This document shows, one piece after another, positions 7,489-64,000 of a stretch of 64,000 nt of DNA (position 1 is its first letter; each line of letters begins with the position of its first letter). Under the pieces are notes generated by a model. The model was not told the DNA's origin and ran no database searches. It was given only the letters and a program-made list of their open reading frames with translations. This DNA comes from Rhodococcus triatomae BKS 15-14 (GTDB taxonomy: Bacteria; Actinomycetota; Actinomycetes; Mycobacteriales; Mycobacteriaceae). A program made the position numbers and the translations under genes. The stretch spans positions 1-64,000 of the forward strand of contig AODO01000009.1 of NCBI GenBank assembly GCA_000341795.1, read 5' to 3'.

Positions 7489-7498
7489 CCACCCGCCG

Positions 7499-7555: not shown

Positions 7556-7570
7556 TGCTGGTGAGGACGG

Positions 7571-40137: not shown

Positions 40138-40743
40138 ATGGCAGGTAAACCCACCAGACGCTCGCCGATCCAACAACGTGGACGGGAGATGCGTGGCCGG
40201 ATCCTCACCTCTACCCTCACACTCCTCGAACGCAACCCCGGCACCACGCCCAGCACCACCGCCCTCGCCGAACACGCCCACGTCAGCATCGGCACCGTCT
40301 ACCGGTACTTCGCCGACATGGACGCCATCGTCGAGGAACTGCGACTTGCCGCCGTCCACGACATCACGACGCGGCTGTCGAGCAGCATCGGCCGCGCCAT
40401 GGACCAGTCGCCCTTCGACGCGATGGTGACGGTCGTCGAGGCGCTGACGTCGGCGTTCGAAGCCCACGCCGCGGTGATGCGGGCGTCGTACACGTCCGCG
40501 GAGAGCGCGTTCGGCGACGCGTGGGCCGAGGTCGAAGGACCGCTGCTGCCACTGGCGCGCATCATCCCCACCCGACTGCGTCCCGACCTGGACGACGCGG
40601 CCATCGACGACCTGGTGTTCATCACCATGGGAGCGACGGCGAGCCTGTGCTCCCGGATCGCCCTCCTGCGGCCTGCGGGATCGGATCGGCACGCCCTCGT
40701 CGCGACAACGGCGAGGATGCTGCTGGCGGCGTTCGACGCGTGA
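40138..40743 (+). CDS. TetR-family regulator
   Basis: 201-aa TetR protein. The DNA-binding domain occupies about residues 15-65 (MRGRILTSTLTLLERN and ALAEHAHVSIGTVYRYF), followed by an effector domain. It is divergent from the DUF2236 oxygenase gene, a layout that usually means direct control of that gene. ATG at 40138 with GGAGAAG upstream. Confidence 0.92.
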   Translation: MAGKPTRRSPIQQRGREMRGRILTSTLTLLERNPGTTPSTTALAEHAHVSIGTVYRYFADMDAIVEELRLAAVHDITTRLSSSIGRAMDQSPFDAMVTVVEALTSAFEAHAAVMRASYTSAESAFGDAWAEVEGPLLPLARIIPTRLRPDLDDAAIDDLVFITMGATASLCSRIALLRPAGSDRHALVATTARMLLAAFDA

Positions 40744-40777: not shown

Positions 40778-41461
40778 ATGAGCCCGATCGCGATCACCGT
40801 CACCGGCCACGCCGAACGTGAGTTCGCCCCGAACCGCTGCACTGTGGTTCTGCGGGTGCACGCGGACGGTGCAACGCGGGAAGCCGCGTCCGAGCCGGCG
40901 GCCGCCGCGATCGCTGCCGTCACCGAGCAGGTGATCGCACTGCGTGAGCAGGACGACAGCCCGATCAAGCGGTGGACGCTCGACGAGATCCGGCACACCC
41001 GGCACCGCCCGTACAGTCAGAGCGGGAAGCCGAAGCCGTGGGTGTACCAGTCGTCGGCGTCGATCACGGTGACGTTCAACGACTTCCGCGGCATCGGCGC
41101 GTTCGTCGAGCGCGCCGCGGAGAGCGACGCCGTCAACGTCGAGCACCTGCGGTGGTGGGTGAGCCGCAAGGCGCAGGCGAAGCGGCTCGCCAAGGTGCGG
41201 CATCTCGCCGTCCTCGATGCCATCGAGAAGGCGCAAGGGTTCACGGAGGCATTGGGGTTCGGCACCTTTCAGGCGGTCGCGATCGCCGACCCGGGCATGC
41301 TGGGCGTCGCTCCCCCGACCGTGCCGATCCGTCCCACCGGGGCGCCGATGATGCGGGCACTCGCCGCACCGATGAGCGTTGACGGCGAACCCGACCTGGT
41401 ACTCGAACCCGATCAGATCACCATCAGCGCCGACGTGGAGGCACGGTTCGAAGCCTCGTAG
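40778..41461 (+). CDS. SIMPL (DUF541) domain protein
   Basis: 227-aa SIMPL-domain protein: ITVTGHAEREFAPNRCTVVLRV at the N-terminus and KVRHLAVLDAIEKAQGF followed by a long strand-rich C-terminus ending PDQITISADVEARFEA. No signal peptide is seen, so this copy is probably cytoplasmic, unlike periplasmic homologues. Function of the family is poorly known. ATG at 40778, 34 bp after tetR. Confidence 0.88.
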   Translation: MSPIAITVTGHAEREFAPNRCTVVLRVHADGATREAASEPAAAAIAAVTEQVIALREQDDSPIKRWTLDEIRHTRHRPYSQSGKPKPWVYQSSASITVTFNDFRGIGAFVERAAESDAVNVEHLRWWVSRKAQAKRLAKVRHLAVLDAIEKAQGFTEALGFGTFQAVAIADPGMLGVAPPTVPIRPTGAPMMRALAAPMSVDGEPDLVLEPDQITISADVEARFEAS

Positions 41462-44403: not shown

Positions 44404-44503
44404 TCCCGGAGGATACGTCGGCCCGGACACTGTGCCCGGCCAGGTGCGACACGCACGGCGCACGTTCTCGATCCTGTCTGTGCCCGCTGCCATCATCGGT
44501 CGC

Positions 44504-45274
44504 ATGCATCAGTTCGACGAGGGATTCGAGCCACCCGAGGACTGCGTCCTGTGGTGTCGGAACAGGACGTACGACATCCACGTTCTCGATGACGACGCCC
44601 TCGTCGACCTGGACTGGTGGAATCGGCACCTGCACGAGGCCGAGCACGACATCAGACTTCGGGGCCGCAACTACGACGGCAAGGTCGTCGAGCACGGACA
44701 GGCGACGGTGCTCCGGAACGACCTGCGCCTGGGCAGCGACCTGATCGAGGCTCGCCACAACGGACTGGGGCTGCTGTTCCTGTGCGCGGCGTGGCGCAGC
44801 GGCCATACGAGACGACGCGGTGCGCGCCGCTTCCCCGACCTGTCCAACCGTTTCGTCGCCGACGGAGTTCAGCGGTACGCGGGGGCGATGGGCGCCATCG
44901 ACGAGCTGATCCGCCTCAAGCGGTTGCCGGACTACGACTACACCACAGGAACCGGGTGGCCGGCACTGCCGAACGTCGGCGTCGCACTGACGACGGTGCT
45001 GGCGTGGGCCCTCGACATCCGAGCCGCGGGCGGTCGCGTCCAGCTGCTCGACCAGCACGGCGTCTCCACGCTCATTCACCAGGGATGGCTGGAGGACCCG
45101 GCGGTCAGTGGCTTCACCCGACGCCGCTACGACCGCTACCTGGAACTGTTGCACCATTGGGCGACCGTCGGCGACACCAGCCCCGAACTCGTCGAGCGGT
45201 GGCTGGTGGAGCGGTGGCACGCGCGGGTCGTCGAGGCGCGGAGCGGGGCGAGCGCAGAACCCATGCTGTTCTGA
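44504..45274 (+). CDS. Conserved hypothetical protein
   Basis: 256-aa protein from ATG at 44504, beginning MHQFDEGFEPPEDCVLWCRN. Aromatic-rich, no membrane segment, no recognised domain; the C-terminal half is helical (YDRYLELLHHWATVG). Divergent from the P-loop gene with a 100-bp gap, so perhaps linked by regulation. I cannot assign a function. Confidence 0.65.
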   Translation: MHQFDEGFEPPEDCVLWCRNRTYDIHVLDDDALVDLDWWNRHLHEAEHDIRLRGRNYDGKVVEHGQATVLRNDLRLGSDLIEARHNGLGLLFLCAAWRSGHTRRRGARRFPDLSNRFVADGVQRYAGAMGAIDELIRLKRLPDYDYTTGTGWPALPNVGVALTTVLAWALDIRAAGGRVQLLDQHGVSTLIHQGWLEDPAVSGFTRRRYDRYLELLHHWATVGDTSPELVERWLVERWHARVVEARSGASAEPMLF

Positions 45275-46768: not shown

Positions 46769-47062
46769 ATGCAGGTCGATCCGGAGCAACTGCGCGTGCT
46801 CGCCGCTGGTATGTACGAATCCGGCGAAACAATCGACGACATCGATGTCCGTACGATGATCGACGGCGCAGGCGACTTCCTTCCGGGCTGCGGAGTTGTC
46901 AGCGCGGTCCGTGAAGCCGGCGAGTTCACCGAGGGCGCCTACTTGCGGATGGCCGAACGAGCGAGGCTCATCGCGTTCGTCGCCAAGGGCGGAGCCAACG
47001 ACTTCGAGGTGTCCGAGGACGAGTTCCGTGCGGACCTCGGCGCCATCGGAGCCGCAGGGTGA
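46769..47062 (+). CDS. EspC-like type VII secretion target
   Basis: 97-aa protein of the T7SS EspC/ESX-target size class, opening MQVDPEQLRVLAAGMYESGE and ending FEVSEDEFRADLGAIGAAG. Strong GGGGGG Shine-Dalgarno before ATG 46769. It overlaps the large substrate gene by GTGA. Pairs of an EspC-like protein with a large effector are common; they are likely co-secreted. Confidence 0.72.
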   Translation: MQVDPEQLRVLAAGMYESGETIDDIDVRTMIDGAGDFLPGCGVVSAVREAGEFTEGAYLRMAERARLIAFVAKGGANDFEVSEDEFRADLGAIGAAG

Positions 47063-48417
47063 CACCGTCGCGAAGCCAGATCGCGGCGTGGAAGCCCACC
47101 GCGCTGCGAGACGTCGCGGACCGGATCACCTCCCAGAACGGCGTTTACCGAGACTGCGTGCACCACATGAGGAGTCGGGTCCAGGACGCAGGCGGCGACT
47201 GGTCCGGTGCCGCATACGACGCGGCATATGAACGCACGTGCAGCGACTGCGATCGAGGTTCACGGATCGCTGACGAGGTCGACGCACTCGCTCAGGTGCT
47301 CGTGAGCGCCGCCGCCGACCTCGACTCCTACCTCAACGTTCTGCGTTCGAAGGCAAACGATGCCGAGGTCGCGGGGTGCATCATCTCAGAGGACTGGTCC
47401 ATGACCGGCACCGATTCGGAAGTCCACGCACCGCTGGTCTCGTCGGCGCTGCGGGCGCTCGAGGACTCCGCCGCGCAGAACGAGCAGCACATCCGCGAGG
47501 CATCCACACGGGTTCGGGACCGCGGCAACGAACTTCCGGACTGGGAAGCACCGAGCACACAGCAGTCCGACCGCGTCGAGCAGACGCGGGACGAGGCATC
47601 CGCCGACGCATTCCACGACATGTTCGGACGCTATCCCGTCACGCCCAGCGACTGGTCCACGGCCGAAGTCCTGAACCCGAACAGCTACACCGAGAAGTAC
47701 GCCGGGGTGCCGCCGGGCATCCAGGTTGCACTCATCGAGCCGGTGCCAGGACAGGGAGTGGTGCGGACGTCGAGCTACATCGAACAAGGGTCGGTCTACA
47801 ACGTGCCCTGGGACGATCTGGGAGACAACAGGACCGACAATGCAGACTTCGACCCCGAGAACAGCCGGGTCACGGTCTACGTCGACTACGAGAACGGCAT
47901 CGTCGTCATGCGACAGAACCCCTCTGTCGACGAGAACGGGTCGGTCCGCGTCGACGAACCGCACGGCGAGGTGTGGCAGAACAGCGACGGCTCCGTCCGT
48001 CTGAGCTACGAGGCCGCCAACCCTTTCCGTCCCAGTGTGATGGGCGTTGAGCCACCGGGCGCTCTCATGCCCGCGGTCAACGGCGACGTGGTGTTCACCC
48101 CGGGACAGGGCACCCCGGGTGCGCCTGACTCGACCGGGGTGACCATCAACGGGATCCGCGACGACTACCCGTCGTTCGAGGCGTACCAGGATTCGCCGGA
48201 CGGCATCACCCACACCATCGTCGTCGACCCGGCCGCGTCCGGTGATTCGACCGCTCCCATGACGAATCTGATCAAGTCTCACGACATCGGGAGCGGGGAT
48301 TCGGCACTGGAGCAGTTCCAGGAGATCCGAGTGCACGGCGGGATGGTCCCACCCACCATGGCGGATCGACCCGGTGTCGCACTGGGCAGTGCCGCCGATC
48401 CGCCGCGAGTCAGCTAG
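47059..48417 (+). CDS. Large putative type VII secretion substrate
   Basis: 452-aa protein with the same N-terminal ESX-type helical domain as 30429-32855 (SQIAAWKPTALRDVADRI, GDWSGAAYDAAYERT). The C-terminal ~270 residues are strand-rich (IEQGSVYNVPWDDLGDN, VTVYVDYENGIVVM, EVWQNSDGSVRLSYEAANPF) and may be an effector or cell-wall-binding domain; I do not recognise it. GTG overlaps the EspC-like gene. Two membrane protein genes follow, a likely export or immunity pair. Confidence 0.72.
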   Translation: MTPSRSQIAAWKPTALRDVADRITSQNGVYRDCVHHMRSRVQDAGGDWSGAAYDAAYERTCSDCDRGSRIADEVDALAQVLVSAAADLDSYLNVLRSKANDAEVAGCIISEDWSMTGTDSEVHAPLVSSALRALEDSAAQNEQHIREASTRVRDRGNELPDWEAPSTQQSDRVEQTRDEASADAFHDMFGRYPVTPSDWSTAEVLNPNSYTEKYAGVPPGIQVALIEPVPGQGVVRTSSYIEQGSVYNVPWDDLGDNRTDNADFDPENSRVTVYVDYENGIVVMRQNPSVDENGSVRVDEPHGEVWQNSDGSVRLSYEAANPFRPSVMGVEPPGALMPAVNGDVVFTPGQGTPGAPDSTGVTINGIRDDYPSFEAYQDSPDGITHTIVVDPAASGDSTAPMTNLIKSHDIGSGDSALEQFQEIRVHGGMVPPTMADRPGVALGSAADPPRVS

Positions 48418-49369: not shown

Positions 49370-52300
49370 TCACCGCTGTTCGTCCGTTCGGGCGACTTCG
49401 GGCTGACCGAACGCCCCTGCCTCATGCCGCGGCAACACCGTTGCGAGCACATCGAAGCGGGGATGCCGTGACCATCCATCGTGGTCTCCGATGACGTAAA
49501 GCCTCTTCTTCGCTCGGCTGACAGCGACGTTCGCAAGGTTGGGTTTCGCTGCTGCCCAACGCTTCGCTCCGTCCTTGGCGGGGTTGCCTCCGAGAACGAA
49601 GAACACGATGTCGGCTTCCTTGCCCTGCGCCTTGTGCACCGTGCCCGCGGACAGCCCCGGGTACCGCTGTTCAAGTGCTCCGAGCCGGTTGGCGACCTGC
49701 CGAAACGGGGTGATGACGATGACCTCACCCATCTCGTGGCCGGCCCCTCGCAGTCGATCGAGCTGCTCACGGAGGACGTCGTGCTCAGCTTCGACGTAGT
49801 GACCCGAGGAAGGCCCGGTGACGTGAATCCACGCCGACGGTGCGTGATCGTCCCGTGGGCTGGGGTCACGGCCGTGCAGCATCGTGCCCTCGTACGCGAT
49901 GGTGTTGACGATGGAGAACATGGGGTCGTCGCAGCGGCGGTGCACGCGGAGCGGGGCGCCCACCCAGATCGGGTTCTCGCCGTCGGAGAGAGTGGTACCC
50001 CACCGATTGAGCCGATCGGCGACGGACTGCGCCGAACCTCGAGCAGGCAGCCATGTCTCCGACACCCCGAATGTCCGGCGCACAGCCTGCTGCGCCCGAA
50101 ATGGCAGCGTGACAACGGGTTCGAGCTGCACCGGATCACCGACGACGACGGTTCGCCTCGCCCGCCAGATCGCGCCCACCGGATTCTGAGGTGTGGCCTG
50201 TCCAGCTTCGTCGATGAGCAGCCACCCGAGGCTCTCCGCTCCGAGTCCGCTGAACATCTTGTCCAGGGATGCGAAGGTCGTGGAGACCAGCGGGACGACG
50301 AAGAACAGTGCCCTCCATGCGTCCGCCACAGCTTCCGAGCCGAGGTCGCGCGGCGCGCCGCCGGACACGACGTCGGTGGCGCCGTGCAGCGCCTGCCGCA
50401 TCTCCTTCGGCACGTGGCCGAGAAACTCGCGGTGCAGAACCAGCGCCGCGAGGAACAATCTGGACCGCGCCTCGGTGACCTCAGGATCGGACCAAGGCGC
50501 GGCCAGTTCCCGGTTCCCCGGGTCGGCGAACCAGTCGGGGCCGGGAACTGCGCTCCCCCAACGCCTCCGATACCGATCGATCGCGGCGTCGAGGACGGCT
50601 GTCCGCTCGGTCAGCTTCCGGTTCTCCTGCGCGAGTGGCTCGTACCTGGCGCGGGCGTCGTCGAGGACATGCAGAGACTGCTGGTGGGGAGCCCACGCGG
50701 TCTGATAGCCGGTCTCCCACCGAGCCAGTGCCTCGGCGAGCTGCTGTCGGTGCGCTCGCCACCGGTCCCGGTCGGCGCGCGCCTGCCTGCTCAACAGCCG
50801 CCACCATGCCGGGCGGGCCCGGTCGTGACCATCGATCTCCGCCGCGACGGTCTCCCGACCGTGGTGCGCGCGCTCCATGGCGGCCCGCAGCGCGAGCTCG
50901 GATTCCTGTGCATTGCCCAGGTGCTCGGCCGCCGTGCCCAGTTGTGCGCTGAGGTCGGCGAGGCGTCGGCGGAGACCGGCGAGTTCGGTGAGCTCGTCGT
51001 GTGCGTGCTGCCGCTGCGCGAGCAGGTCCTCGACGTGGGCGCGGGCCGTCTCGTAGTCGACGACCGCGTCCCGCCACGGTCGCCCGGGACCTGTCGTCTC
51101 GAGTTCCTTGAGGATCGACTGGATCCCGCGGCGCCGCAACGGATCCGAAGTCCCAACTTCTCCGCGGGGCGCCTTCTCGTCGAACCACAGTGTGTTCACG
51201 AAATCTGTCCGATACGACTTGCGGCCGAGCCTGGCCGCGGTCAGCGCCCACGCTGGTCCTGCGTCGTCACCGAGCAGCACGGTCGCGATGTCACCGAAGT
51301 AGTCCACGTCCCCGAAGGTGGCCGCATCGAACTGTCCGGCGGCGGGCATCTCGTGGCTGATGTTCTCGACGGCACCGTTGTTGGACGATGCGACGACCAT
51401 CTCGAAACCGTGGAACTCCGGTTTCCACCGCTGCACGACGCGGGTGTAGTCGCCGGTCTTCCAGCGGTGCGGGGTCGCGGTGAACGCGTCGCGGGGATGA
51501 CCGAGGGTCGCGATGCGGTTGGCACGTTCCACGACGACCGCAGCGACGAGGTCCCGGAGCAGGGTCGACTTGCCGGTGCCCGGCGGACCGTTGACCGCGA
51601 ACACGCCTGCGCCGTCGCCGAGTTCGCTCATGATCGAGTTGACGGCGAACTGCTGACCGAGCGCGAGGGGATGCTCGGGCTTACCGGGCCAGCGGCCCAG
51701 CGGCGTCGCACTCGGCCGGCACCCGTGGAGGGAGGCCGCGGGATCGGCATACACGTCGACCCGACCGGAGACGTCGAGGTCGACGTCCTCGGTGAGGTAG
51801 CGACTCAGTCCCGCGCCGAACCGGCCGCGCTCCACCTCCGCCCGGACGAGATCCAGGTCCTCTGCAATGAAACTGTTCAGGAAGTCGGTGCTGTCGACGC
51901 CGTCCGATTCCTTGACCTCGATCGAGCGCACACGCAACTCCGTGCACTGGACGAGATCGGTGACGCCGAGGAGCTCTTCGGTTCTCGCGCGGATGGTGGA
52001 CAGTCGTGTGTGATCCATCGGCGCCCGCCCACCGTGGTTCTCGTCGACGGCCTGCGCGTCGTCGGTCAGTTCCTGGAACCGCGTCGCTGCTTCCCCGAAT
52101 CCGCTGAGCCACGTCGGGCTACCCGGCCCAGGGCTGCGGGTGCGGCCTGCGGCCCACGCCAATCCGGACACGATCGCGGTGTCGGGCAGATACCGGCCAT
52201 CGCCGTCGAGAACGATCGCAGCAAGCGCGCAGTCGCCGGCTGGACGTGGATCGAAATTCTCGGTGCCGGGGTCGAGGATGCCGTCGACCGCCACCCACAC

Positions 52301-52537
52301 TTCGTCGATGCGGTACACGCCGACGTACACGACGTGCTGCCGCGCATATCCGCGACGTACGGGTTTGGCTTGCAGTCTGTGGCCGGTCTCCCACGGCAGC
52401 GGCGTCCCGGTGACGACCTTCTCGACCGGGGCGTACGCATCGAATCGGTCGACCTTCGGCACCGTCTGCGGGCTGAAGAGCTCGATCGCCCTCCAGAACG
52501 CCACGACATCAGCCTTCGTTCTCGCGTCCCCGCCCAC
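49370..52537 (-). CDS. SF1 (UPF1/DNA2-like) helicase, defence-associated
   Basis: 1055-aa superfamily 1 helicase from GTG at 52537 (GGGGGA upstream; ATG at 52558 is the alternative). Walker A AVNGPPGTGKSTLLRDLV is near residue 315, Walker B LLIDEAGQATPQNPVGAI near 773, then VVVGDPVQLEPV, TVHKAQGKEADIVFF, and motif VI VAVSRAKKRLYVIGDH near 990. A coiled-coil-rich insert separates the Walker motifs (about residues 490-660). The N-terminal ~250 residues are unique. No nuclease motif is seen. Third gene of an operon with the SBD-like protein. Confidence 0.88.
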   Translation of the reverse strand: MGGDARTKADVVAFWRAIELFSPQTVPKVDRFDAYAPVEKVVTGTPLPWETGHRLQAKPVRRGYARQHVVYVGVYRIDEVWVAVDGILDPGTENFDPRPAGDCALAAIVLDGDGRYLPDTAIVSGLAWAAGRTRSPGPGSPTWLSGFGEAATRFQELTDDAQAVDENHGGRAPMDHTRLSTIRARTEELLGVTDLVQCTELRVRSIEVKESDGVDSTDFLNSFIAEDLDLVRAEVERGRFGAGLSRYLTEDVDLDVSGRVDVYADPAASLHGCRPSATPLGRWPGKPEHPLALGQQFAVNSIMSELGDGAGVFAVNGPPGTGKSTLLRDLVAAVVVERANRIATLGHPRDAFTATPHRWKTGDYTRVVQRWKPEFHGFEMVVASSNNGAVENISHEMPAAGQFDAATFGDVDYFGDIATVLLGDDAGPAWALTAARLGRKSYRTDFVNTLWFDEKAPRGEVGTSDPLRRRGIQSILKELETTGPGRPWRDAVVDYETARAHVEDLLAQRQHAHDELTELAGLRRRLADLSAQLGTAAEHLGNAQESELALRAAMERAHHGRETVAAEIDGHDRARPAWWRLLSRQARADRDRWRAHRQQLAEALARWETGYQTAWAPHQQSLHVLDDARARYEPLAQENRKLTERTAVLDAAIDRYRRRWGSAVPGPDWFADPGNRELAAPWSDPEVTEARSRLFLAALVLHREFLGHVPKEMRQALHGATDVVSGGAPRDLGSEAVADAWRALFFVVPLVSTTFASLDKMFSGLGAESLGWLLIDEAGQATPQNPVGAIWRARRTVVVGDPVQLEPVVTLPFRAQQAVRRTFGVSETWLPARGSAQSVADRLNRWGTTLSDGENPIWVGAPLRVHRRCDDPMFSIVNTIAYEGTMLHGRDPSPRDDHAPSAWIHVTGPSSGHYVEAEHDVLREQLDRLRGAGHEMGEVIVITPFRQVANRLGALEQRYPGLSAGTVHKAQGKEADIVFFVLGGNPAKDGAKRWAAAKPNLANVAVSRAKKRLYVIGDHDGWSRHPRFDVLATVLPRHEAGAFGQPEVARTDEQR

Positions 52538-52628
52538 TGCTCCCCCGCCCCTCCTCATCGACCCGCGACAGTATGCTGCACCGCACCGACATCGGGCGCC
52601 GCGACGACCACCCCCGCGCTCGTCTCGA

Positions 52629-53363
52629 TCAGCCGGGCAATCCGGCCGATACCTCCGCGATGCGTCGGGTGAGGACCGCGACGGCCTCGTCCCGCCACAG
52701 CGGATCACCGAGTTTCTCTCGGACCGCCTCGTTCAGACCGGCCGCCAGGTCGTCCTTCACCGCAAGCTTGTGCAGCTCTTGGTGGGTGAGCCCGCCCTCT
52801 TCGACACCGTCGGGGAGGTGGAGCGTCCACCATCCACTGCTTCGTAGCGCGACCCACGGATCCGCCGGCCGCGGTGCCGAGTCCGCGACGGCGTACGGAG
52901 CGAGCAGAGCGGCGAGCTCGTCGCGCACCTTCGACAACGGCACCGCCTCACGCTGGGGATCCGGTCCATCGACCGCCCACCGCAACACGACGAACTTGTA
53001 TGCGGCGCCCTTGCCGCCACGGGTGAACACCGTCGTGTTCTCGAGGTCCCACAGCAATCCGCCGTGTGCGTGCTTGCCGCCGTGATCGACGACGAACCCA
53101 AGTTCGCGCAGCCTGTCGGCGACGGTCGCCAGCCCGCCGGAGAACTCGGTGTTGTCGAGGAATCGCCCGGTCGCGTAACCGTGCGCAACGCCGACGATCG
53201 CCTTGGAGTCGTAGAAGCGGCCTTCGTGCACCAGCCGGAAGTTACGCGCTTCTCCGTAGCCGCGGCGGCTCAGAAACTCTGACTGTCCCAACTCGTCGTA
53301 CTCGGCAACTGCCCGCAGGACGGATCGGCGGTCGATGGACTCAAGGTTTGCTGGCGGGGTCAT
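52629..53363 (-). CDS. ScoMcrA-like head domain plus SBD-like DNA reader
   Basis: 244-aa protein from ATG at 53363. Residues about 5-95 match the N-terminal head domain of type IV enzyme ScoMcrA (SIDRRSVLRAVAEYDELGQ, FLSRRGYGEARNFRLVHEG, YDSKAIVGVAHGY, FSGGLATVADRLRELGF). Residues about 115-240 match the phosphorothioate-DNA sulfur-binding domain pattern (YKFVVLRWAVDG, LSKVRDELAALLAPY, WVALRSSGWWTLHLPDG). Unlike ScoMcrA, SRA and HNH domains are missing. It may recognise modified DNA and recruit the adjacent helicase. 91 bp before the helicase. Confidence 0.72.
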   Translation of the reverse strand: MTPPANLESIDRRSVLRAVAEYDELGQSEFLSRRGYGEARNFRLVHEGRFYDSKAIVGVAHGYATGRFLDNTEFSGGLATVADRLRELGFVVDHGGKHAHGGLLWDLENTTVFTRGGKGAAYKFVVLRWAVDGPDPQREAVPLSKVRDELAALLAPYAVADSAPRPADPWVALRSSGWWTLHLPDGVEEGGLTHQELHKLAVKDDLAAGLNEAVREKLGDPLWRDEAVAVLTRRIAEVSAGLPG

Positions 53364-53409
53364 GGCGCGGACCATACAGCCGAGTCCGTTCGGCAACGCT
53401 CCTGTCCGG

Positions 53410-54735
53410 TCAGTCTCGCTGGCCCGGTTGATCCACCAGAACCGTTTCGGGCGCGCTCGACTTGTCTCGCGACTCGGCGACGCGCATCAGCCCAGCTCCC
53501 ACCCGACCGAAGCCTGCGGCACCCGCATCGAGCGCCTTACCGCCAATAAAGGTTGCCCCATCACCAATCGCTGCTCCGACGACCTTCGCGCGATTGCCGA
53601 GCTCGTCGATCGCGTCCCGGAACCCCGGGTGCGAGTGCTCGTCCCACTCAAGGACCTTCGTGCGGCGCGCTTCGGCGAAGTCGTCGAGGCCCTGACGCAA
53701 GGTGGCTGCGTTCTCCCGGATGCTCGCCGCCGACTTCCATCGTGCGATCTCGAGCGGTTTGATCTCGGTGCAGGCGTGCAGGATGTCTCGAGCCTGGGTG
53801 AGGAGCTCGGCGTCCTCCCGTAGGTGGTCGCCGAGGAGGTCCTTCATCATGCGGTACGAGGTGTCGAGATGCTGAGGCTCGGTCGCTTCGATCCGGGCTG
53901 CCTTGAGGGTGTGCCACTTGTAGAGCGAATCCTCGGTGACGACCAACAACTGCAGTGTCGCCCCGAGGAGGCTCTGGTTCACCGTCTTGTCGAGGAACGC
54001 CGCGCGCTCCTTCGCCGAAGCCGTCGGGTCGAACGAGTCGAGCGTGAGACGAACGAAGTGGCGAAGCTTCGCCGCTGTGATCTCAAGAGCGGGACCGAGT
54101 CCGGCCACCGAATCCCAGTCGGCCGATGACAGTCTCCCGCTCTCGTCGACGAACGCGGCGAGCTTGCTCAGCGCGGCGTGCGCACCCAGGACGTTGCCTG
54201 CCTGATCAGCCTTCGCAAGCGTCAGGATCGCGTCGACGGTGTCCTGGACGCGTTCGACGGCCGACTCCACCGACGCGATCGCGGTGCGCAACGAGATGGT
54301 GACCATCGCCATCTGCAACGCGAGGGCCTGCGCCGGGAGCATGGTGACTGGGCTCCATTGGATCTGCCCGGCGAACTTGTGCGCACCGTCTACGACCGTC
54401 GGCAGGAAGAAGCCCGGAACCCCGGGGACCAGATTGTGATTCTGGATCAGCTCCATGCTGTGCGGAGCTATGCGAACGAACTCGCCGGCACCGGCCGCGA
54501 GCGCAGCCACGGCACCTGCTGCTGCCGCGACATCGGCAACATTCTGCGTGGAGACGTCGGCGACGCTGACCGCATCGGACGCGAGCGACTTGAGTCGCTC
54601 CACGTAGCTCGCGACGAATTCGGGATCTCCGGCGACAAGCACACCGTCGGGTTCGACCACGAGGGCGCCGATCGGCTCGTCGGGCGTCGAGCTGGGAATG
54701 AGGTCACCAAGGTTGTCCTGCTGCACGGGCGACAT
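53410..54735 (-). CDS. Unknown helical protein, defence operon gene 1
   Basis: 441-aa mostly helical protein that I do not recognise. Features: an Ala/Val-rich hydrophobic stretch near residues 60-85 (VADVAAAAGAVAALAAGAG), an amphipathic segment LQMAMVTISLRTAIASVESAV, and a Gly/Ala-rich C-terminus (IGDGATFIGGKALDAGAAGFG). It is the first gene of a likely three-gene operon, 46 bp upstream of the SBD-like gene. A pore-forming or membrane-acting effector is possible but unproven. Confidence 0.7.
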   Translation of the reverse strand: MSPVQQDNLGDLIPSSTPDEPIGALVVEPDGVLVAGDPEFVASYVERLKSLASDAVSVADVSTQNVADVAAAAGAVAALAAGAGEFVRIAPHSMELIQNHNLVPGVPGFFLPTVVDGAHKFAGQIQWSPVTMLPAQALALQMAMVTISLRTAIASVESAVERVQDTVDAILTLAKADQAGNVLGAHAALSKLAAFVDESGRLSSADWDSVAGLGPALEITAAKLRHFVRLTLDSFDPTASAKERAAFLDKTVNQSLLGATLQLLVVTEDSLYKWHTLKAARIEATEPQHLDTSYRMMKDLLGDHLREDAELLTQARDILHACTEIKPLEIARWKSAASIRENAATLRQGLDDFAEARRTKVLEWDEHSHPGFRDAIDELGNRAKVVGAAIGDGATFIGGKALDAGAAGFGRVGAGLMRVAESRDKSSAPETVLVDQPGQRD

Positions 54736-56454: not shown

Positions 56455-57462
56455 GTGATCAACGGGGGACAGACAACGACATCCGCAGGACGCACACTTT
56501 TCGATGCGCTCGAATCCGCGACCACAGACATCCTCTTGACCAGTCCGTACCTGTCGATGGGTGTGGCGTCGAGGTTGTCGCAGCTCGCTTCCAGCTCCGC
56601 TGCCCGGTGGCGGCTGCTGACATCGCTGGATCCGTCGGCAGCAGCCAACGGGTTCCTCAGCGTGAAGGGCCTGCGCCAACTCTTGGACTCGGGTATCGAG
56701 GTTGCATCCGATCAGAGTCTGCACGCGAAGGTGTTTCTCGTCGATGACGCCTTCGCACTGGTCGGATCCGCGAACCTGACGGGCAGCGGCTTGGGGCTCG
56801 TATCCAGGCCCAACCTCGAGTTGTCTGTCCGACTGCGGGACTCGGACGTCCCGGCGGCCCGTTCACAAGCGGAGCAATGGTGGAATGCCGCCGCCAAGGT
56901 CCACGAAGATCAGCTGACGCGACTGGAGGAGGCGGCGAAACAGCTTCCTCGGGCACCGCGAGTCAGTGTTCCCCGCATCGGCGGATCGACTCAGGACGTC
57001 GAGCAGCTTCTCGCGGATGCTCGAGCCGACGGTGTGTCCCTGTGGATCAAGGCGCAGTACGGCCCCGGCTACCCGGACCACTGGCTGGCGGACGGCTGGT
57101 TCTCGAGCTCGAAGAAGGGCAAGCCCTCGTTCAGGCCCGGTGACCTCGTCCTCGTCTACGCAAAGGATTCAGCCGGCTGCTACGCCGCCGTCGAGGTGGC
57201 CGACGACCCGGTCTACGATCCGAAGTTCGTCCAGGCGCACAGCGGCTCACCTGATTCGGGCGACCGATGGCCCTGGGTGACGCGAACCGTTCCTCGGCTG
57301 GTACCGCAAGCGTTGACGTTGGTTTCTCTCGACGAACTGGGTGTGACTCCGCAAGGATTGCAAGGCGGACATGTCCGGCTGGAACTGAGCGAGTTCGCCG
57401 CGGGGGTTCGGTTGCTCGCGGCCGCCCAGTCGGGCGGACTGGCGGCAGTCGTCGCCGGCTAG
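56455..57462 (+). CDS. Phospholipase D-type nuclease with EVE/PUA-like domain
   Basis: 335-aa protein from GTG at 56455; upstream extension would run into the previous gene. The PLD-like domain (about residues 10-160) has one HxK(x)4D motif, HAKVFLVDD at residue 90, followed by SANLTGSGL; a single motif implies a dimer, as in restriction enzymes such as BfiI and NucC-unlike PLD nucleases. Residues about 190-330 resemble an EVE/PUASU-type domain (RPGDLVLVYAKDSAGCYAAVE, ADDPVYDP, RWPWVTRTVPR), known readers of modified bases. Possibly a modification-dependent nuclease. Confidence 0.75.
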   Translation: MINGGQTTTSAGRTLFDALESATTDILLTSPYLSMGVASRLSQLASSSAARWRLLTSLDPSAAANGFLSVKGLRQLLDSGIEVASDQSLHAKVFLVDDAFALVGSANLTGSGLGLVSRPNLELSVRLRDSDVPAARSQAEQWWNAAAKVHEDQLTRLEEAAKQLPRAPRVSVPRIGGSTQDVEQLLADARADGVSLWIKAQYGPGYPDHWLADGWFSSSKKGKPSFRPGDLVLVYAKDSAGCYAAVEVADDPVYDPKFVQAHSGSPDSGDRWPWVTRTVPRLVPQALTLVSLDELGVTPQGLQGGHVRLELSEFAAGVRLLAAAQSGGLAAVVAG

Positions 57463-57623: not shown

Positions 57624-58691
57624 GTGCCGTTCGAGCTCGACCATCGTCTGGTGATCGGTGTCGCCTCCAGCGCCCTGTTCGACCTCACCGAGTCGGACGC
57701 CGTATTCCATGATCGTAAAGAAGCTGGATATCGCATCTATCAGGAGAAGCATCTCGACGTCCCACTCGCCGGCGGCGTGGCATTTCCATTCGTGAAGCGG
57801 CTGTTGTCGTTGAATGACTTGAGCCCATCGAACGACCCGTTGGTCGAGGTCATTGTGCTGTCCCGGAACGATCCGATGACTGGTCTTCGAGTCATGCGGT
57901 CGATCGAACACCACGGGCTGCGGATCACGCGGGCGATCTTCACGCAGGGTCAGTCCCCGTATCCGTACATCCCTGCGCTCGGAATCACCCTGTTCCTCTC
58001 GGCGAACTCTGCAGATGTCGGTGGCGCGACGGAGGCCGGCTATCCCGCCGGCCTGGTTCTCGATTCCACGACCAGCGATGACCCTGACGACGCGGAGCTG
58101 CGGATCGCATTCGACTTCGATGGGGTGGTGATCGATGACGAATCCGAGTCTGTGATGCAGTCCGGAGGTCTCGAGCAGTTCCTCGATCACGAACGTGCCA
58201 ACGCAGTCACCCCGCACAAGGAGGGCCCGCTGGCACAGTTCTTGCTGAGATTGTCGGCCATCCAGTCCATCGAGGAAGCTCGTGTCGAGTCGGACGAGAC
58301 GTACACCCGTCGGATCCGCATCTCCATCGTGACCGCCCGCAACGCCCCGGCGCATGAACGAGCGGTGACGACCTTGAAGAGCTGGAACGTCGCCGTCAAC
58401 GACGCATTCTTTCTTGGTGGGATCGACAAGGGTCGAGTTCTTGCCGTGCTGAAGCCGCACATCTTCTTCGACGATCAGCGAACCCACCTGGCGTCGAGCT
58501 CGAAGTTCGTGCCCTCGGTTCATGTCCCGTTCGGCGAACTGAATCGACTCGTAGAGTCGGATGCCGCGGCTGGGGCGCCGTCAGTTCTCATCGAGCCACC
58601 ATTGTCGGCGTCGGAGCCGTCGGTAGATCCCGGATTGCTAGAGTCTGGCGAGGTGAACGCGACCGCCGTCGGCCGCGAAGGGACAACGTGA
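57624..58691 (+). CDS. Cytosolic 5'-nucleotidase (NT5C1-like)
   Basis: 355-aa protein of Pfam 5'-nucleotidase type (PF06189). Matches to the animal NT5C1 family include GLRVMRSIEHHGLRI and FTQGQSPYPYIPAL with FLSANSADV, then the catalytic DxD-type FDFDGVVIDDESE, SIVTARNAPAHERA and LKPHIFFDDQRTHL. Hydrolysis of nucleoside 5'-monophosphates is expected. GTG at 57624 with GGAG upstream. Its last codon overlaps the GTG of pglW (GTGA). Nucleotidases are not standard BREX components. Confidence 0.88.
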   Translation: MPFELDHRLVIGVASSALFDLTESDAVFHDRKEAGYRIYQEKHLDVPLAGGVAFPFVKRLLSLNDLSPSNDPLVEVIVLSRNDPMTGLRVMRSIEHHGLRITRAIFTQGQSPYPYIPALGITLFLSANSADVGGATEAGYPAGLVLDSTTSDDPDDAELRIAFDFDGVVIDDESESVMQSGGLEQFLDHERANAVTPHKEGPLAQFLLRLSAIQSIEEARVESDETYTRRIRISIVTARNAPAHERAVTTLKSWNVAVNDAFFLGGIDKGRVLAVLKPHIFFDDQRTHLASSSKFVPSVHVPFGELNRLVESDAAAGAPSVLIEPPLSASEPSVDPGLLESGEVNATAVGREGTT

Positions 58692-61600
58692 CAACGGGCG
58701 GTGACGTGGCGCAAGGCAGTGGCTCGAATCGGCAGGGCGACCGATGGGTCGAGGTCTCGAAGTCGGCGTTCAACCACGAAGCCGAGGGCCTGAGCTTCCT
58801 CCAGGACATCGTCCCCAACGCCTCCCCTTATCGTGCGTGGACGAATTTCGAGTTCATGGACAACCACGGCATGTGGCACGAGGTCGATGCCCTGGTTCTG
58901 GGCCGCCGCCGTCTGCATCTGATCGAGCTGAAGCACTTCGTGGGCCGCCTGGGCGGTACGGAGACGAACTGGGTGCGGCATCTGCCGAGCGGCAAGGTCC
59001 GCACGCAACGCTCCCCACTCCTTTTGACGCGCCGTAAGGCGCAGCGATTGGCGACGCGCATCGAGGAGGAGGCGCGGAAGGTTGCGATCGAGAACGGACT
59101 GAATCCGGAGAAGGTCCGCCGGGCGTTGCCGTTCGTGCAGGAGTCGGTCTTCCTGCACGCCGAGGGTTTCTCGGTCGAGATGTCGGAAGTCGCGAAGTCG
59201 GGTCTGTTCGGCCTGGACGGCGAGGAGCATCGCTCGAACCTGCCGGGCATCTCCACGCGCATCCTGGAGTCGCCGACGGACGGTCGCCGGGTCGACGAAG
59301 ACATCAGCGTCATCGTCGCGCTGGCGCTGAAGAACCTCGGGGTGTCACGCCGCACCGAGCGCGACGCCGGCTCATGGACCATCTCGGGTGCCCCGCTGGC
59401 GTCGGGTGACGACTGGCAGGAGTGGCCGGCGAAGCACAAGGGCACAGACGAGCCGGCCCGTGCCCGCATCGTGTCGTTCCGCCCAGGCACGCCCGTGCAT
59501 GCGCGGGCGGCGGCGCACCGGAAGATGGGCCGCGAGTACACGCTGCTGTCATCGCTGCGGCACGAGGCGATCGTCGCCCCCCGCGACCTGGTGCAGGACG
59601 ACGACGGCAACACCGTCCTCGTCTACCCGGAGACCCCGGGCTACGAGCCCCTCGATCTGGCGTTGGCGACGCGCACCCTCACCGCGGAGCAGCAGCTGAC
59701 GGTGTTGACGTCGATCGCGGAGGCGTTGGCGTATGCGCACCGCAACCACGTCGCGCACCGCGGGCTCGGGCCGTCGACGGTCCTGATCCACACCGAACGC
59801 CTCGATGCGGGCCGGGTGGATGTGCGGTTGGTGGACTGGTCGTGGGCGGGACGCATCCACGACGGCGGCACCAAGTCGGCGACGATGCTCGGCACCGCGC
59901 TGACGGCGACGGGCGGCGCAGCGGCGGACGAGGTGTACCAGGCGCCGGAGGACCGCTGGGCGCCCGATTCGGACCGCATCGCGCTGGACGTGTTCTCCCT
60001 GGGTGCGTTGGCGTACTTCCTGCTGTCGGGTGGACAGAACCCGGCGCGCGACCGGGCCGCGCTGCTGGAGCGGCTGCGGCTGGAGCAGGGCCTCGATTTG
60101 GCGGCGTCGACGGGCCGGTTCGTCGACGAGCAGCTGCGTGAGCTGGTGCTGCGGACCACGAGCCCGTCGGTGTCGAAACGGGTGGCGGTCGACGCGAAGT
60201 CCGGTCGACCGACGTTCGGTGCCCAGCACTTCGCGGCAGCGCTCGACGACTACCGCCGCGCACAGGAACCGGCCGCCGCTGCACCGGAGATCGATCCGCT
60301 GAACCCGCCGACCGGCGCACTCCTCGACGACCGGTTCGAGGTACTGCAGGTTCTCGGATCGGGGTCGACGGCCCGCGGCATCCTCGTCGCCGACCACGAC
60401 GCCGACGGCCGGCAGCGCGTCCTCAAGGTCGGCCTCGACGACACGGCGGCGCACCGCCTGCAGAACGAGGCGGAGGTACTGACGACTCTCGCGCAACAGC
60501 AGCCGCCGGTGCCCGGCGTGGTGGAGCTGATCGAGGGCCCGCTGCAGTTGGCGCAGCGGACGGCGCTGCTGCTCAGCAACTGCGGCGAGCAGACCCTCGC
60601 CGACGTGGTCCGCTACACCCCGCTCGGGGAGGCGCAGCTCAAGACGTGGGGCCTCGGCCTGCTGGACGCCGTCGTCGCATTGGACGCGGCCGGCATCACA
60701 CACCGCGACATCAAACCGTCGAACCTGGGCCTGTCCCGGCCGACGGGTAAGCGCAACGAGAAGCCGAAGCTCGCCCTGTTCGACTTCTCCCTGTCCCGCG
60801 CGGCCGTCGAGCAGACCGACGCGGGCACTCCCCCGTATCGGGATCCGTTCCTCGGCACCGGCATCCGCACCGCCTACGACTCTGCCGCGGAACGCTATTC
60901 GGCGGCGGTGGTGCTGTACGAGATGGCGACGGCCAGCACCCCGCTGTACGGCGACGGGGTGAGCGATCCCCGAGTGCTCGCGGACGACGTGTCGGTGTCG
61001 GCGGAGGATTTCGGCGGGCACTCCCGCACCCGCGCGGAAGCCCTCACCACGTTCTTCCGGTCAGCGCTGGCCCGCAACGTGAAGGACCGCTTCGACACGG
61101 CCGCCGCGATGCGCGCGGCGTGGGCGGCGGTGTTCGCGGCGAAGGCAACCGAACCGGAACCCGTCGTGCAGCCACCGGCACCCACCCCCACCGAGCCGAC
61201 ACCCCCGCCGGTTGTCGTGGCCGAACCCGCCACCTACCGGTCGCTGCGGGTGCTGTCGGCGGAGTTCGCGCGGGCGGCGGCGACGAAGCCGTCGGCGATC
61301 CGCCGGCAGGTGGTGGAGCTGCTGCTCGGCAGCCATCCCGACTCCCCTGCCGACCCGTTCGTCACCTACCAGGTGCTGGCACCGTTGGCGGGGGTGACGC
61401 CGGGCCGGGTCGCGCAGATCTTCGGTGAGATGCGGGACCTGTGGTCGAAGAACCCGCAGTTGGCGGCAACAGTGGACCTGTTGTTCCAGCGCGGCATCAC
61501 ACTGCTCGAATCGACGGGCGGCGCAAGCACTCCCGAGGTGCTGGCCCGCGAGCTGGCGGCGTCTCTGGACACCGATGGTGTGCCCGATCCGCAGCGCACC

Positions 61601-62827
61601 GCGCTCGGCGTGCTGCGCCTGGTGTTGACGTCGGCGGCCGAGCCGGAGCCGGGCAGCGAGGACGACGACCCCCGGCCGCTGCTGACGCGCCGTCAGTCCA
61701 CGGGCTCCGTGGCAATGATCGCCACGAATGCTGTGTCCCGCCGTTTGCCGGCCGTGCTGGCACGTGAGGTCGACGGCCTCGTCGCCGCGGCGGAAGACCA
61801 GGGGTTGGCGTTGGTGACGGCGGAGCACGCCGAGCAGCCGTTGCGCGCCGCTGCAGCCGCCGCGTTGGACGTGGCACCGGAGGAGGTGGAGATCCCCGGC
61901 TACGTGTTGCTGCGGATCGCCGCCGGGTCGTCGGTGCAGGTGGCGTTGTCGGCGCGAGACGAACTGCATTCTGTCGGTCTCCCGATCCGGGACGTGTTGG
62001 CGCTGCTACTGCAGGGGCTATCGACATCGGACGCGTTCGGCCGGCCGGAGCTGGAATCGCGTGTCGCGGCCCGGTTCCCTGCACTGGCGAAATCGCTGCC
62101 CCGCCGCCCCGACCTCGACGCCCTCGTCGCGTCTGTGGCGCCGGGGATGGCGTGGAGCGACGCCCGGAACCGATACGAGTTCGAGGACGCACCGCAGCGG
62201 CTGTCGCACGTGCCGACGCGGCATACCCTCGCCGGATCCCCCGCCGCCGCGGGCCAGAAGGGCAGCGACGTGGAGTTGCTGCTGCACGCGAGCGCGCGGG
62301 AGCGCACGTTCCGCGCCTTGGGCGTGCCGATGGGCGCCTCCGACCAGGTGGCGGACGCACTGGTGGAGCGATTCGGCGCGGTCCGCGTCGACGTCACGGA
62401 TGTGTTGTTGGGTGAGTTGCGGTCGAAGGCCGCGCAGGCCGGCATCCCGTGGGATGCGATCCTCGCCGCCGATTCCGGTGCGGCCGCCGACCGCGAGGGC
62501 TTGAAGGGGTTTGTCGCGCAGTCCATCCCGGCCGTCGTCGACGCGGTGAACGCGGCAGGTGGTCCGGTCGTGTTGACGGACCTGTCGACGCTGGCCGCGT
62601 ACGGGCAGTTGGGTGCGCTGCAGGCGTGGGTGGATGTGACGAATCCGCCGCCGCATGCGGTGTGGGCGTTGATCCCTCAGCCGGAGGAGTCGGGTGGCCG
62701 GCCTGGCGCCCGCGTCGACGGGACGGCGCTGCCGCGCACCACCCCGGAGCAGTTCGTGCAGGTGGACCGGTTCGGTTTGCGGGCACTCGTTTCCACTGAT
62801 GATCGATCGATGAAGGAGCATGTCTGA
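58688..62827 (+). CDS. pglW: PglW: NERD plus tandem kinase-like protein of BREX type 2
   Basis: 1379-aa PglW. Residues about 15-140: NERD (nuclease-related) domain with VDALVLG (Asp67) and IELKHF (Glu80, Lys82). Residues about 260-520: kinase-like domain whose HRD is replaced by HRGLGPSTV (near 357) and DFG by VDWSW (near 383), so probably inactive. Residues about 545-830: active-type kinase with HRDIKPSNLGL (Asp674) and LFDFSLSR (Asp699). The C-terminus is helical. PglW autophosphorylates in Pgl systems. It overlaps the nucleotidase and pglX genes. Confidence 0.93.
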   Translation: MTTGGDVAQGSGSNRQGDRWVEVSKSAFNHEAEGLSFLQDIVPNASPYRAWTNFEFMDNHGMWHEVDALVLGRRRLHLIELKHFVGRLGGTETNWVRHLPSGKVRTQRSPLLLTRRKAQRLATRIEEEARKVAIENGLNPEKVRRALPFVQESVFLHAEGFSVEMSEVAKSGLFGLDGEEHRSNLPGISTRILESPTDGRRVDEDISVIVALALKNLGVSRRTERDAGSWTISGAPLASGDDWQEWPAKHKGTDEPARARIVSFRPGTPVHARAAAHRKMGREYTLLSSLRHEAIVAPRDLVQDDDGNTVLVYPETPGYEPLDLALATRTLTAEQQLTVLTSIAEALAYAHRNHVAHRGLGPSTVLIHTERLDAGRVDVRLVDWSWAGRIHDGGTKSATMLGTALTATGGAAADEVYQAPEDRWAPDSDRIALDVFSLGALAYFLLSGGQNPARDRAALLERLRLEQGLDLAASTGRFVDEQLRELVLRTTSPSVSKRVAVDAKSGRPTFGAQHFAAALDDYRRAQEPAAAAPEIDPLNPPTGALLDDRFEVLQVLGSGSTARGILVADHDADGRQRVLKVGLDDTAAHRLQNEAEVLTTLAQQQPPVPGVVELIEGPLQLAQRTALLLSNCGEQTLADVVRYTPLGEAQLKTWGLGLLDAVVALDAAGITHRDIKPSNLGLSRPTGKRNEKPKLALFDFSLSRAAVEQTDAGTPPYRDPFLGTGIRTAYDSAAERYSAAVVLYEMATASTPLYGDGVSDPRVLADDVSVSAEDFGGHSRTRAEALTTFFRSALARNVKDRFDTAAAMRAAWAAVFAAKATEPEPVVQPPAPTPTEPTPPPVVVAEPATYRSLRVLSAEFARAAATKPSAIRRQVVELLLGSHPDSPADPFVTYQVLAPLAGVTPGRVAQIFGEMRDLWSKNPQLAATVDLLFQRGITLLESTGGASTPEVLARELAASLDTDGVPDPQRTALGVLRLVLTSAAEPEPGSEDDDPRPLLTRRQSTGSVAMIATNAVSRRLPAVLAREVDGLVAAAEDQGLALVTAEHAEQPLRAAAAAALDVAPEEVEIPGYVLLRIAAGSSVQVALSARDELHSVGLPIRDVLALLLQGLSTSDAFGRPELESRVAARFPALAKSLPRRPDLDALVASVAPGMAWSDARNRYEFEDAPQRLSHVPTRHTLAGSPAAAGQKGSDVELLLHASARERTFRALGVPMGASDQVADALVERFGAVRVDVTDVLLGELRSKAAQAGIPWDAILAADSGAAADREGLKGFVAQSIPAVVDAVNAAGGPVVLTDLSTLAAYGQLGALQAWVDVTNPPPHAVWALIPQPEESGGRPGARVDGTALPRTTPEQFVQVDRFGLRALVSTDDRSMKEHV

Positions 62828-64000
62828 TGGCGTTGGCCACGATTTCCGGAGCCGCGCTCAAGGACGCACTGAAGCCGCAGCTGACGCTGCTGGTCGACGA
62901 CATGCGCACCAAGCTCACCGCCGACGCCGACGAGCTGGCGCGTTGGCGGGCAATACACCGTGAGGCTGTCGCCGAGCAGCGGACCGCGGTGTCGTGGACG
63001 GACTGGTCCGAGGACCAGCTCACCCAGGCCGCCGTCGGCTGGCTCCTCACCTCGGTGTTCGTGCGGTTTTGTGAGGACAACCTGCTCCTCGGTGACACCA
63101 CTGTCTGGATCACCCATCCCGACCCGATGCTCCGTCAACGCGCCGTCGACGCTGAGCAGGCGTTCTACCGCGCCGACACCAACAACTCGTACCGCGAATG
63201 GCTGGAGCAGTCCTTCGACGCCCTGCGGAAGTACCCGGCCACCCAGTCGCTGGTGGACGAGCACGCGGCGCTGAACATCATCGCCCCGTCCTCCGATGCG
63301 GTGCACCAGGTGCTGTCGTTCTGGCGGCAGGTCGACGACTCCGGTTCCCTCGCCTGGACTTTCCGCGACCCGGAACTCACCACCCGCTTCCTCGGTGACC
63401 TGTATCAGGACCTTTCGGACTTCGCGAAGAAGAAGTACGCGCTGTTGCAGACACCGGAGTTCGTGGAGGAGTTCATCCTCGACCAAACCCTCGAACCGGC
63501 CCTGAAGGACCGACCGCTGGAGGGGTTCAAGGTCATCGACCCCACCTGCGGGTCCGGTCACTTCCTGTTGGGGGCCTTTGCACGACTCGTCGATCGATGG
63601 AACCGCGAAGCACCCGGATTGGAACTGCGGACGCGGGTCGACAACGCACTGTCGTCCGTCTACGGCGTGGACCTGAACCCCTTCGCCGTCGCCATCGCCA
63701 AGTTCCGGCTGATCGTCGCTGCGCTGAAGGCTTGCGGGGAAACGACTTTGGTGAACGCACCCAAGTTCACCCTCAACCTCGCCAACGGCGATTCACTGCT
63801 GCACGGGGCAGAGCAGGGCGGTGCGAAAGCCTTCGACTTCGGCGACCTGTCCTTCGACAAGGACGCCGTGGTGTCAGGGTTCGCGTACTCCACTGAAGAC
63901 GTGGCGCTGCTTCGCCGGATTCTCGCGCCGGGGCAGTACGACGTGGTTGTCGGGAATCCGCCGTACATTGTCGTGCGGGACAAGGCACTCAACCAGCGAT
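62827..64000 (+). CDS. pglX: PglX adenine-specific methyltransferase, 5' part
   Basis: First 391 codons of PglX; the gene runs off the window. Helical N-terminal region, then the SAM-binding motif I DPTCGSGHFLLGAF (residues 238-251), ending shortly after motif IV NPPY (residues 377-380), as in N6-adenine methyltransferases. In Pgl/BREX type 2, PglX modifies host DNA at the BREX site and is needed for phage restriction. ATG is coupled to pglW by a 1-bp TGATG overlap. PglY, PglZ and BREX type 2 partners are expected downstream. Confidence 0.95.
   Translation, partial: MALATISGAALKDALKPQLTLLVDDMRTKLTADADELARWRAIHREAVAEQRTAVSWTDWSEDQLTQAAVGWLLTSVFVRFCEDNLLLGDTTVWITHPDPMLRQRAVDAEQAFYRADTNNSYREWLEQSFDALRKYPATQSLVDEHAALNIIAPSSDAVHQVLSFWRQVDDSGSLAWTFRDPELTTRFLGDLYQDLSDFAKKKYALLQTPEFVEEFILDQTLEPALKDRPLEGFKVIDPTCGSGHFLLGAFARLVDRWNREAPGLELRTRVDNALSSVYGVDLNPFAVAIAKFRLIVAALKACGETTLVNAPKFTLNLANGDSLLHGAEQGGAKAFDFGDLSFDKDAVVSGFAYSTEDVALLRRILAPGQYDVVVGNPPYIVVRDKALNQR

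Follow-up and report, generated by a model that had tools for sequence, protein, structure and literature searches.

Do three adjacent minus-strand genes of Rhodococcus triatomae BKS 15-14, lying beside a BREX operon, form one defence system, or have they come to lie together without joint function? They were found in the first 64,000 nucleotides of contig AODO01000009.1 (the whole stretch is called the window here), and the initial annotation proposed them as an operon that pairs a reader of modified DNA with a helicase and a helical protein. They are named G3, G2 and HEL below; three-digit G and L numbers are our handles for other genomes and loci. The evidence consists of gene content, homology, gene fusions, neighbourhoods, and which neighbours were kept or lost in relatives. 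It leads us to favour, tentatively and at a little less than an even chance, a split modification-dependent (type-IV-like) defence operon of exchangeable parts, within which cooperation between G3 and G2 is rather probable. We take the trio to be a new variation on modification-dependent defence, not a kind of its own. The genes are:

53410-54735, minus strand: G3, 441 aa, an alpha/beta and helical-bundle protein of no named family
52629-53363, minus strand: G2, 244 aa, a solo head plus SBD protein of ScoMcrA type, without SRA or HNH
49370-52537, minus strand: HEL, 1055 aa from a GTG start, a superfamily 1 (SF1), Upf1-like helicase

They are read in the order G3, G2, HEL, and the coordinates, strands and spacing first described all hold, with gaps of 46 bp (G3-G2) and 91 bp (G2-HEL); a possible alternative start of G2, a TTG at 53396, would reduce the first gap to 13 bp. 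The contig that carries the trio is 144 kb long and the genome 5.8 Mb. None of G3, G2 and HEL has a nuclease domain that we could recognise, and the view that a reader is here split from its nuclease and adjoined by a helicase, inside a defence island, is supported. No paper describing a system of head-SBD protein, helicase and G3 was found in the open-access literature searched.

The three proteins

G2 has the composition first ascribed to it. Its profile matches ScoMcrA (PDB 5zmm, residues 5-216) with an E-value of 2.3e-21 and the PADLOC model mREase_IV (positions 5-177 of 560) with 3.2e-17, and the chain of 244 aa closes with the SBD, no SRA or HNH part following it. A Pfam scan gave no domain, and the score against the NCBIfam phosphorothioate (PT)-DNA endonuclease model NF045808 was 24 bits (cut-off 180). 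The assignment of G2 as an SBD protein, predicted from its sequence, stands. According to PMC6224610, the sulfur pocket of ScoMcrA is made of H116, R117, Y164, P165 and A168, with Y164 less conserved since it also contacts bases; in PMC7470945 the SprMcrA pocket is Y31, Q32, Y78, P79 and A82, and one survey regards the SBD as a winged helix-turn-helix (PMC10853773). The aligned positions in G2 are Y122, K123, D168, P169 and A172, all invariant in six aligned close relatives. The likeness of G2 to ScoMcrA and SprMcrA, type-IV PT-dependent endonucleases of the SBD-HNH kind, thus lies in the head, the SBD and four of five pocket positions (Y122, K123, P169 and A172) that agree with one enzyme or the other and would be compatible with a functional pocket. 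The differences are the lack of SRA and HNH, the replacement of the lid tyrosine (ScoMcrA Tyr164) by Asp in G2 and all six relatives, and a base-contact loop (SRGRR in ScoMcrA, HGD in SprMcrA) that is not kept in the G2 alignments. With this altered lid, phosphorothioate may or may not be what G2 binds.

DndC was found in none of 11 genomes, the window's own included, a result with a weak control (of 14 known genomes, five gave a match below the cut-off and none above it) and one that leaves aside the Ssp genes, which were not searched. PF01507 (PAPS reductase) had three to four matches per genome in all eight genomes scanned, which presumably belong to sulfate assimilation. Since DndC was not found, a PT mark, if G2 reads one, would probably be foreign rather than host-made.

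HEL is a 1055-aa SF1 helicase, as proposed: it carries the motifs GPPGTGKS (317), DEAG (776), GDPVQ (800), TVHKAQG (966) and VAVSRA (1004), matches Pfam AAA_11/AAA_12, and has SMUBP-2, UPF1 and DNA2 as its nearest solved structures by profile. Its N-terminal domain of about 290 aa had been called unique, which we reject, since it aligns across most of the HEL family and is a family-wide trait; a weak structure model of this part (mean predicted local distance difference test score, pLDDT, 63.0) gave no clear fold match. The coiled-coil insert fared better in part: matches to SMC and JetC are present at about 491-659 and the region is coiled-coil-like, but they are weak (E 2e-4 to 0.01). The nearest PADLOC model is Mokosh MkoC (E 1.1e-61; best stretch 403-963 of 1136). 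MkoC combines a helicase with a PLD domain, and in Mokosh type I a kinase or NERD domain is found on MkoA, with the PLD gene MkoB adjacent. HEL shares with type II the SF1 helicase region, but no PLD domain was hit in it, the protein ending 20 residues past the end of the MkoC match; its N-terminal part lies outside the best MkoC match, and it has extra genes upstream. From type I it differs in that the Pfam scan found neither kinase nor NERD in it, and the nearby PLD gene, which has the opposite orientation, is separated from the trio by another gene. A PLD-like domain is listed for both Mokosh I and II in PMC10952713.

G3 had no match in Pfam, PADLOC, NCBIfam or PHROGs. It had been described as helical with a hydrophobic stretch, and its structure model is indeed mostly helical (mean pLDDT 69.2, with residues 161-360 above 80 in every ten-residue block), but the stretch at 69-87, rich in Ala, Gly and Val (Kyte-Doolittle 1.71), is weak as a membrane helix. 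Compared with known folds, this model, itself weak, gave no significant structural match; JukB, MukF, syntaxin and latrotoxin were considered as fold relatives and dropped, their scores lying within helical-bundle noise.

Partners of G3 in other genomes

Relatives of G3 occur in 39 of 201 family genomes, at 44 places. We read 25 G3 loci, namely the window, 22 of the 43 other chromosomal places (mostly chosen by score) and two of five plasmid records; some are near-duplicates (G115 and G170). At eight of the 25, a reader or type-IV-like nuclease is fused to G3 or is its same-strand neighbour. Three of the eight are the window, with its head-SBD gene, and G064 and G026, described below. The order G3-G2 is kept in G105, with a decayed SBD. 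A C-terminal RAMA domain is fused to G3 in G051 (39.5 bits) and on plasmid pR8L1 (43.7 bits; Pfam cut-off 35.2), and G051 has an HNH gene two genes upstream of the fusion. In G079 and G094 an HNH-family gene overlaps G3 by 4 bp (Pfam was run on the G079 gene). Plasmid pCP135, where an annotated HNH gene that scores below the Pfam cut-off is divergent to G3, was excluded from the eight. RAMA is treated as a reader module in PMC12839542, and PMC11037411 notes RAMA-nuclease fusions and could not confirm a preference for methylated adenine for one RAMA protein. The fusions and operon-like neighbours in other genomes support the view that G3 is tied to nucleases and to readers of modified DNA. The likeness to known reader-nuclease fusions (GIY-YIG-RAMA, EVE-HNH) lies in G3 relatives that are fused to RAMA or stand beside a 6yex-like HNH open reading frame (ORF), and the difference in the window is that the reader is a separate SBD protein.

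Two further candidates were dropped, both proposed by eye and confirmed by no search: a UDG-like segment N-terminal to G3 in the fusion protein of G008, and, in the gene adjoining G3 in G051, a GIY-YIG part (11.8 bits, cut-off 22.6) together with an EVE part. The G3 relative of G008 (L083) is fused to about 400 extra residues and is located after PglX, the position held by an AbiTii gene in the BREX operon beside the trio.

The strongest support for joint function comes from two of the 24 other G3 loci, G064 and G026, where G3 stands in a same-strand trio with a modification-type factor and a large helicase; the parts differ and the composition resembles that of the window. In G064, which belongs to the window's genus, the genes of locus L096 are:

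9033-10313: G3
7902-8912: HNH ORF, 336 aa
2359-7839: 1826-aa protein

The gaps are 120 bp between G3 and the HNH ORF and 62 bp between that ORF and the gene for the 1826-aa protein. The best match of the HNH ORF is PDB 6yex (E 3.8e-7), which we take to be the EVE-HNH enzyme VcaM4I. The 1826-aa protein shares 37% identity across about 420 residues with a protein of G182 (L071_06) that has a PADLOC match to PDC-S37/Hhe, and by this similarity it appears to be a helicase-type, Hhe-like protein. In G026 (L093) the run consists of a DruE-type gene, a doubtful 150-aa ORF, G3, and a GmrSD-RAMA gene 69 bp downstream. The DruE protein shares 63% identity with the DruE that PADLOC matched next to G2 in R. 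gordoniae, and lies 575 bp from G3 if the doubtful ORF is discounted; the GmrSD-family protein shares 31% identity with the GmrSD of G095, which Pfam confirms, and has a RAMA-like C-terminus (tblastn 2e-10). Between GmrSD/SspE type-IV systems and the trio there is a likeness in these two places, a GmrSD gene upstream of HEL in G095 and the GmrSD-family gene downstream of G3 in G026; the window trio differs in having no GmrSD domain.

G2 and HEL elsewhere, and the window neighbourhood

A G2 match was obtained in 29 of the 201 family genomes. Six, the window's included, are near full length, and the rest are partial, decayed or part of longer ORFs; on plasmids the relatives carry the annotation HNH endonuclease or DUF3883 protein. 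A further scan for head-SBD genes gave 18 loci. Nine loci were examined closely (the window, L058, L068-L072, L074 and L094). HEL is the neighbour at two of the nine. One locus each has DrmB at 98 bp followed by DrmA; DruE at 531 bp (R. gordoniae); a divergent Hhe/S37-like helicase gene at 341 bp; a convergent DrmD/DpdE-like gene with MzaB/MzaC beyond; and MzaB/MzaC-like genes 1-3 kb off. In G058 (L094) the head and SBD ORFs are split and the Azaca genes ZacA-B-C follow at a distance of about 110 bp, and at L070 nothing is nearer than 6.8 kb to the head-SBD gene. Such a split, with head and SBD in different reading frames, is seen both in G058 (L094 9215-9903) and in G141 (L074 9347-10032). 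Druantia (DruE), DISARM (DrmA/DrmB), Azaca (ZacABC) and Hhe thus resemble the trio in that, in the relatives, genes for their large helicases adjoin a solo head-SBD gene or a G3 gene, and differ in that their helicases are of other families than HEL. We know of no head-SBD or G3 component in these four systems.

Helicase genes were counted near nine G2 loci, decayed and split ones included, and 20 G3 loci. With phmmer they were found within 1 kb at 5/9 vs 1/20 loci, within 4 kb at 8/9 vs 2/20 and within 8 kb at 8/9 vs 5/20, figures biased by queries that were drawn mostly from the G2 loci themselves. A repaired motif scan of called genes, which misses DrmA, DrmD and ZacC, gave 4/9 vs 1/20, 5/9 vs 6/20 and 8/9 vs 10/20 at the same distances. 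An earlier version of that scan (1/9 vs 1/20 at each distance) missed HEL itself and was dropped. Some of the loci are related to each other (L069/L070, L074/L094, window/L058), and the enrichment of helicases near G2 is at most suggestive.

HEL relatives are present in 11 of the 201 family genomes (E <= 1e-20), 23 of 397 order genomes (E <= 1e-60) and 631 of 72,556 plasmid records, and at 492 of the 631 one place spans at least 80% of HEL. Klebsiella accounts for 542 of the records, at about 35% identity; on plasmid pRHB30-C05_2 (L098, 5974-9315) the relative is flanked by traG and a lytic transglycosylase gene and is annotated only as a helicase. We collected 37 HEL loci besides the window (10 family, 20 order, seven plasmid, about 11-20 kb each) and searched them with G2 and G3 by tblastn. 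Genes were called with a home-made caller, which missed G3 in L087 and L093, the HNH ORF in L096 and HEL in L098, all found otherwise. Among the close upstream neighbours are a GmrSD type-IV enzyme gene, 250 bp from HEL in G095, of the window's genus, and a Type ISP restriction-modification gene (L123 9093-13910) 130 bp upstream of the HEL relative (5696-8962) in G505. G480 and one G468 locus (L128, L132) share a 369-aa gene 100 bp downstream of the HEL relative, possibly a different partner.

Several findings weigh against a joint function of the three genes. G3, G2 and HEL occur together in the window only, among the 201 family genomes; tblastn found G2 in just one of the 37 other HEL loci (a 55-aa remnant in G144) and G3 in none. 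A conserved triad of these three families, whose absence from other genomes the initial annotation named as a refutation, is all but refuted by the two surveys, while a looser combination, in which G3 is joined by some modification-type factor and some large helicase, is what recurs in G064 and G026. By the gene caller, a same-strand gene lies within 300 bp upstream of HEL at six of 36 other loci, and the genes differ (in a Delftia record one more such gene is annotated, which the caller missed), so that HEL has no constant partner. A scan for a shared promoter of the trio gave none above chance. At 17 of the 25 G3 loci G3 has neither a fusion to a reader or type-IV-like nuclease nor such a gene adjacent on the same strand. 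Five of the 17, all of the Rhodococcus group, have another gene, of the uncharacterised c003 family (about 700 aa), directly upstream of a shorter G3, and some others lie among ordinary genes, as in G067, where an MFS transporter gene is 142 bp downstream of G3. The HNH ORF of G064 is an open frame with a poor codon score. Finally, G2 is degraded beside G3 in G105 and beside HEL in G144, so neither partner depends on it. The c003-short G3 pairs (L089-L092, L095) are spaced 7-77 bp; c003 stands one gene from G3 in a sixth locus and about 700 bp downstream of it in two more, and the c003 member of L076 has a sigma-70 region 4 match. The remaining G3 loci show no evident partner.

The absence of G3 from the 37 HEL loci also speaks for a narrower reading, in which a module that senses modification consists of just the two genes G3 and G2, and HEL is independent, downstream by chance. 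The links of G3 to readers and nucleases occur independently of HEL, and HEL occupies the same hotspot without G2 or G3 in G095 and G175. However, the decayed G2-HEL pair recurs in G144 and a large helicase stands in the same run at two other G3 loci, and we consider this reading rather unlikely.

The main rival to a joint function is accretion, that is, three unrelated defence genes gathered in a hotspot beside BREX. Several genes from this part of the window are found again next to HEL in G095 and G175, namely 38892-40067 (MPAB-type), 40189-40743, 40778-41461 (SIMPL) and 44444-45274 (OGG-like). Varying sets of PnuC, NadR and FAD oxidase families, together with WXG100/EspA-like families, recur beside the G2 relatives of G182, G129, G141 and G058; the window itself has, as hotspot markers, WXG100-like (sub-threshold) and EspA-like (ESX-associated) genes at 46769-48417 and 30429-32855. 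The names NadR, PnuC, TetR, FAD oxidase, LysR and NRPS for hotspot and neighbour genes were assigned by eye. HEL and G2 look like repeated tenants of what seems to be one chromosomal hotspot, and a shared hotspot alone could bring them side by side, a further point against joint function. The trio has been seen once, and its single genes are freely lost or replaced. Against accretion stand the operon-like gaps, the G3-RAMA fusions, the overlap of G3 with HNH genes and the similar trios of G064 and G026. Accretion in its pure form is also weakened by G144, where the remnant of G2 and a HEL 82% identical to that of the window keep the window order, and the hotspot genes are absent in the 19.5 kb read. 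We judge it unlikely.

On the other side of the trio the genes run on the opposite strand and encode an SNase-Excalibur protein, a PLD protein, a 5'-nucleotidase and PglW. Two features concern us here:

56455-57462, plus strand: PLD protein with a sub-threshold EVE match, 1.7 kb from G3, a candidate nuclease in trans
58688-64000, plus strand: start of a type-2 BREX operon (PglW, PglX), a neighbour and not part of the trio

The BREX system announced by the initial annotation is a complete type-2 operon, continuing past the window with PglX, an AbiTii gene, BrxC/PglY, PglZ, BrxD and BrxHI; the AbiTii gene lies just beyond the window on the same contig (L148 5657-6706), between PglX and BrxC/PglY. 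A DpdE-like helicase is encoded at 26459-29716 on the plus strand (PADLOC 6.7e-226). The PLD (HKD) protein has a sub-threshold C-terminal EVE match (16.7 bits, cut-off 23), and may itself be a reader-nuclease fusion between the trio and BREX.

This protein also underlies a reading of the locus as a Mokosh variant, with HEL and the PLD nuclease acting in trans and G2 and G3 as accessories. The similarity of HEL to MkoC fits this, as do matches of the PLD protein to MkoB (1.3e-4) and, weakly, to MkoC 990-1099 (1.4e-3). However, its matches to ZacB (5e-10) and DrmC (2.5e-8) are better, and its gene is encoded on the other strand and separated from the trio by a further gene. When the 10 other family HEL loci were searched with a strict HKD pattern, no PLD gene emerged, which counts little since the pattern also missed known PLD genes in L094 and L083. 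A Mokosh variant seems to us quite improbable.

How the parts may act together

In favour of one split operon we count the tight same-strand spacing, the homology of G2 to ScoMcrA, the ties of G3 to RAMA and HNH, the trios of G064 and G026, the decayed G3-G2 and G2-HEL orders of G105 and G144, the GmrSD gene upstream of HEL in G095, and the DrmB, DruE, ZacA-B-C and Hhe-like genes beside solo head-SBD genes. For the split modification-dependent operon that we favour, we infer joint action, an order of steps, a role of G3 as hub or effector and the reading of a modification, as follows. The head and SBD of G2 would bind incoming DNA that carries a non-host backbone or base modification. HEL, an ATP-driven SF1 motor, would then be loaded at the marked site or activated by it, and G3 may be a helical hub or effector that couples reader to motor and triggers damage. 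Since no nuclease domain is recognised in the trio, the harm could be done by HEL, which might displace strands or block replication, by G3 through some activity of its own, or by a nuclease in trans, for which the PLD protein at 56455-57462 is a candidate by its proximity and weak MkoB/MkoC matches. In relatives the hub would pair with RAMA, HNH or GmrSD-RAMA in place of the SBD, and with a DruE or Hhe-like helicase in place of HEL.

Taken more broadly, and with more doubt than the operon itself, G3 might mark undescribed actinobacterial cassettes in which a helical hub is combined with swappable readers or type-IV factors (SBD, RAMA, HNH, GmrSD) and swappable helicases (MkoC-like, Hhe-like, DruE), sensing being split from the nuclease and coupled to a motor.

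If true, modification-dependent restriction would not be limited to reader-nuclease fusions, and a stand-alone reader could address varied helicase systems through a common hub. This would explain the small head-SBD genes that lie beside DISARM, Druantia, Azaca and Hhe-like genes, and it would give a function to the G3 family, which is present in about a fifth of the genomes surveyed from this bacterial family.

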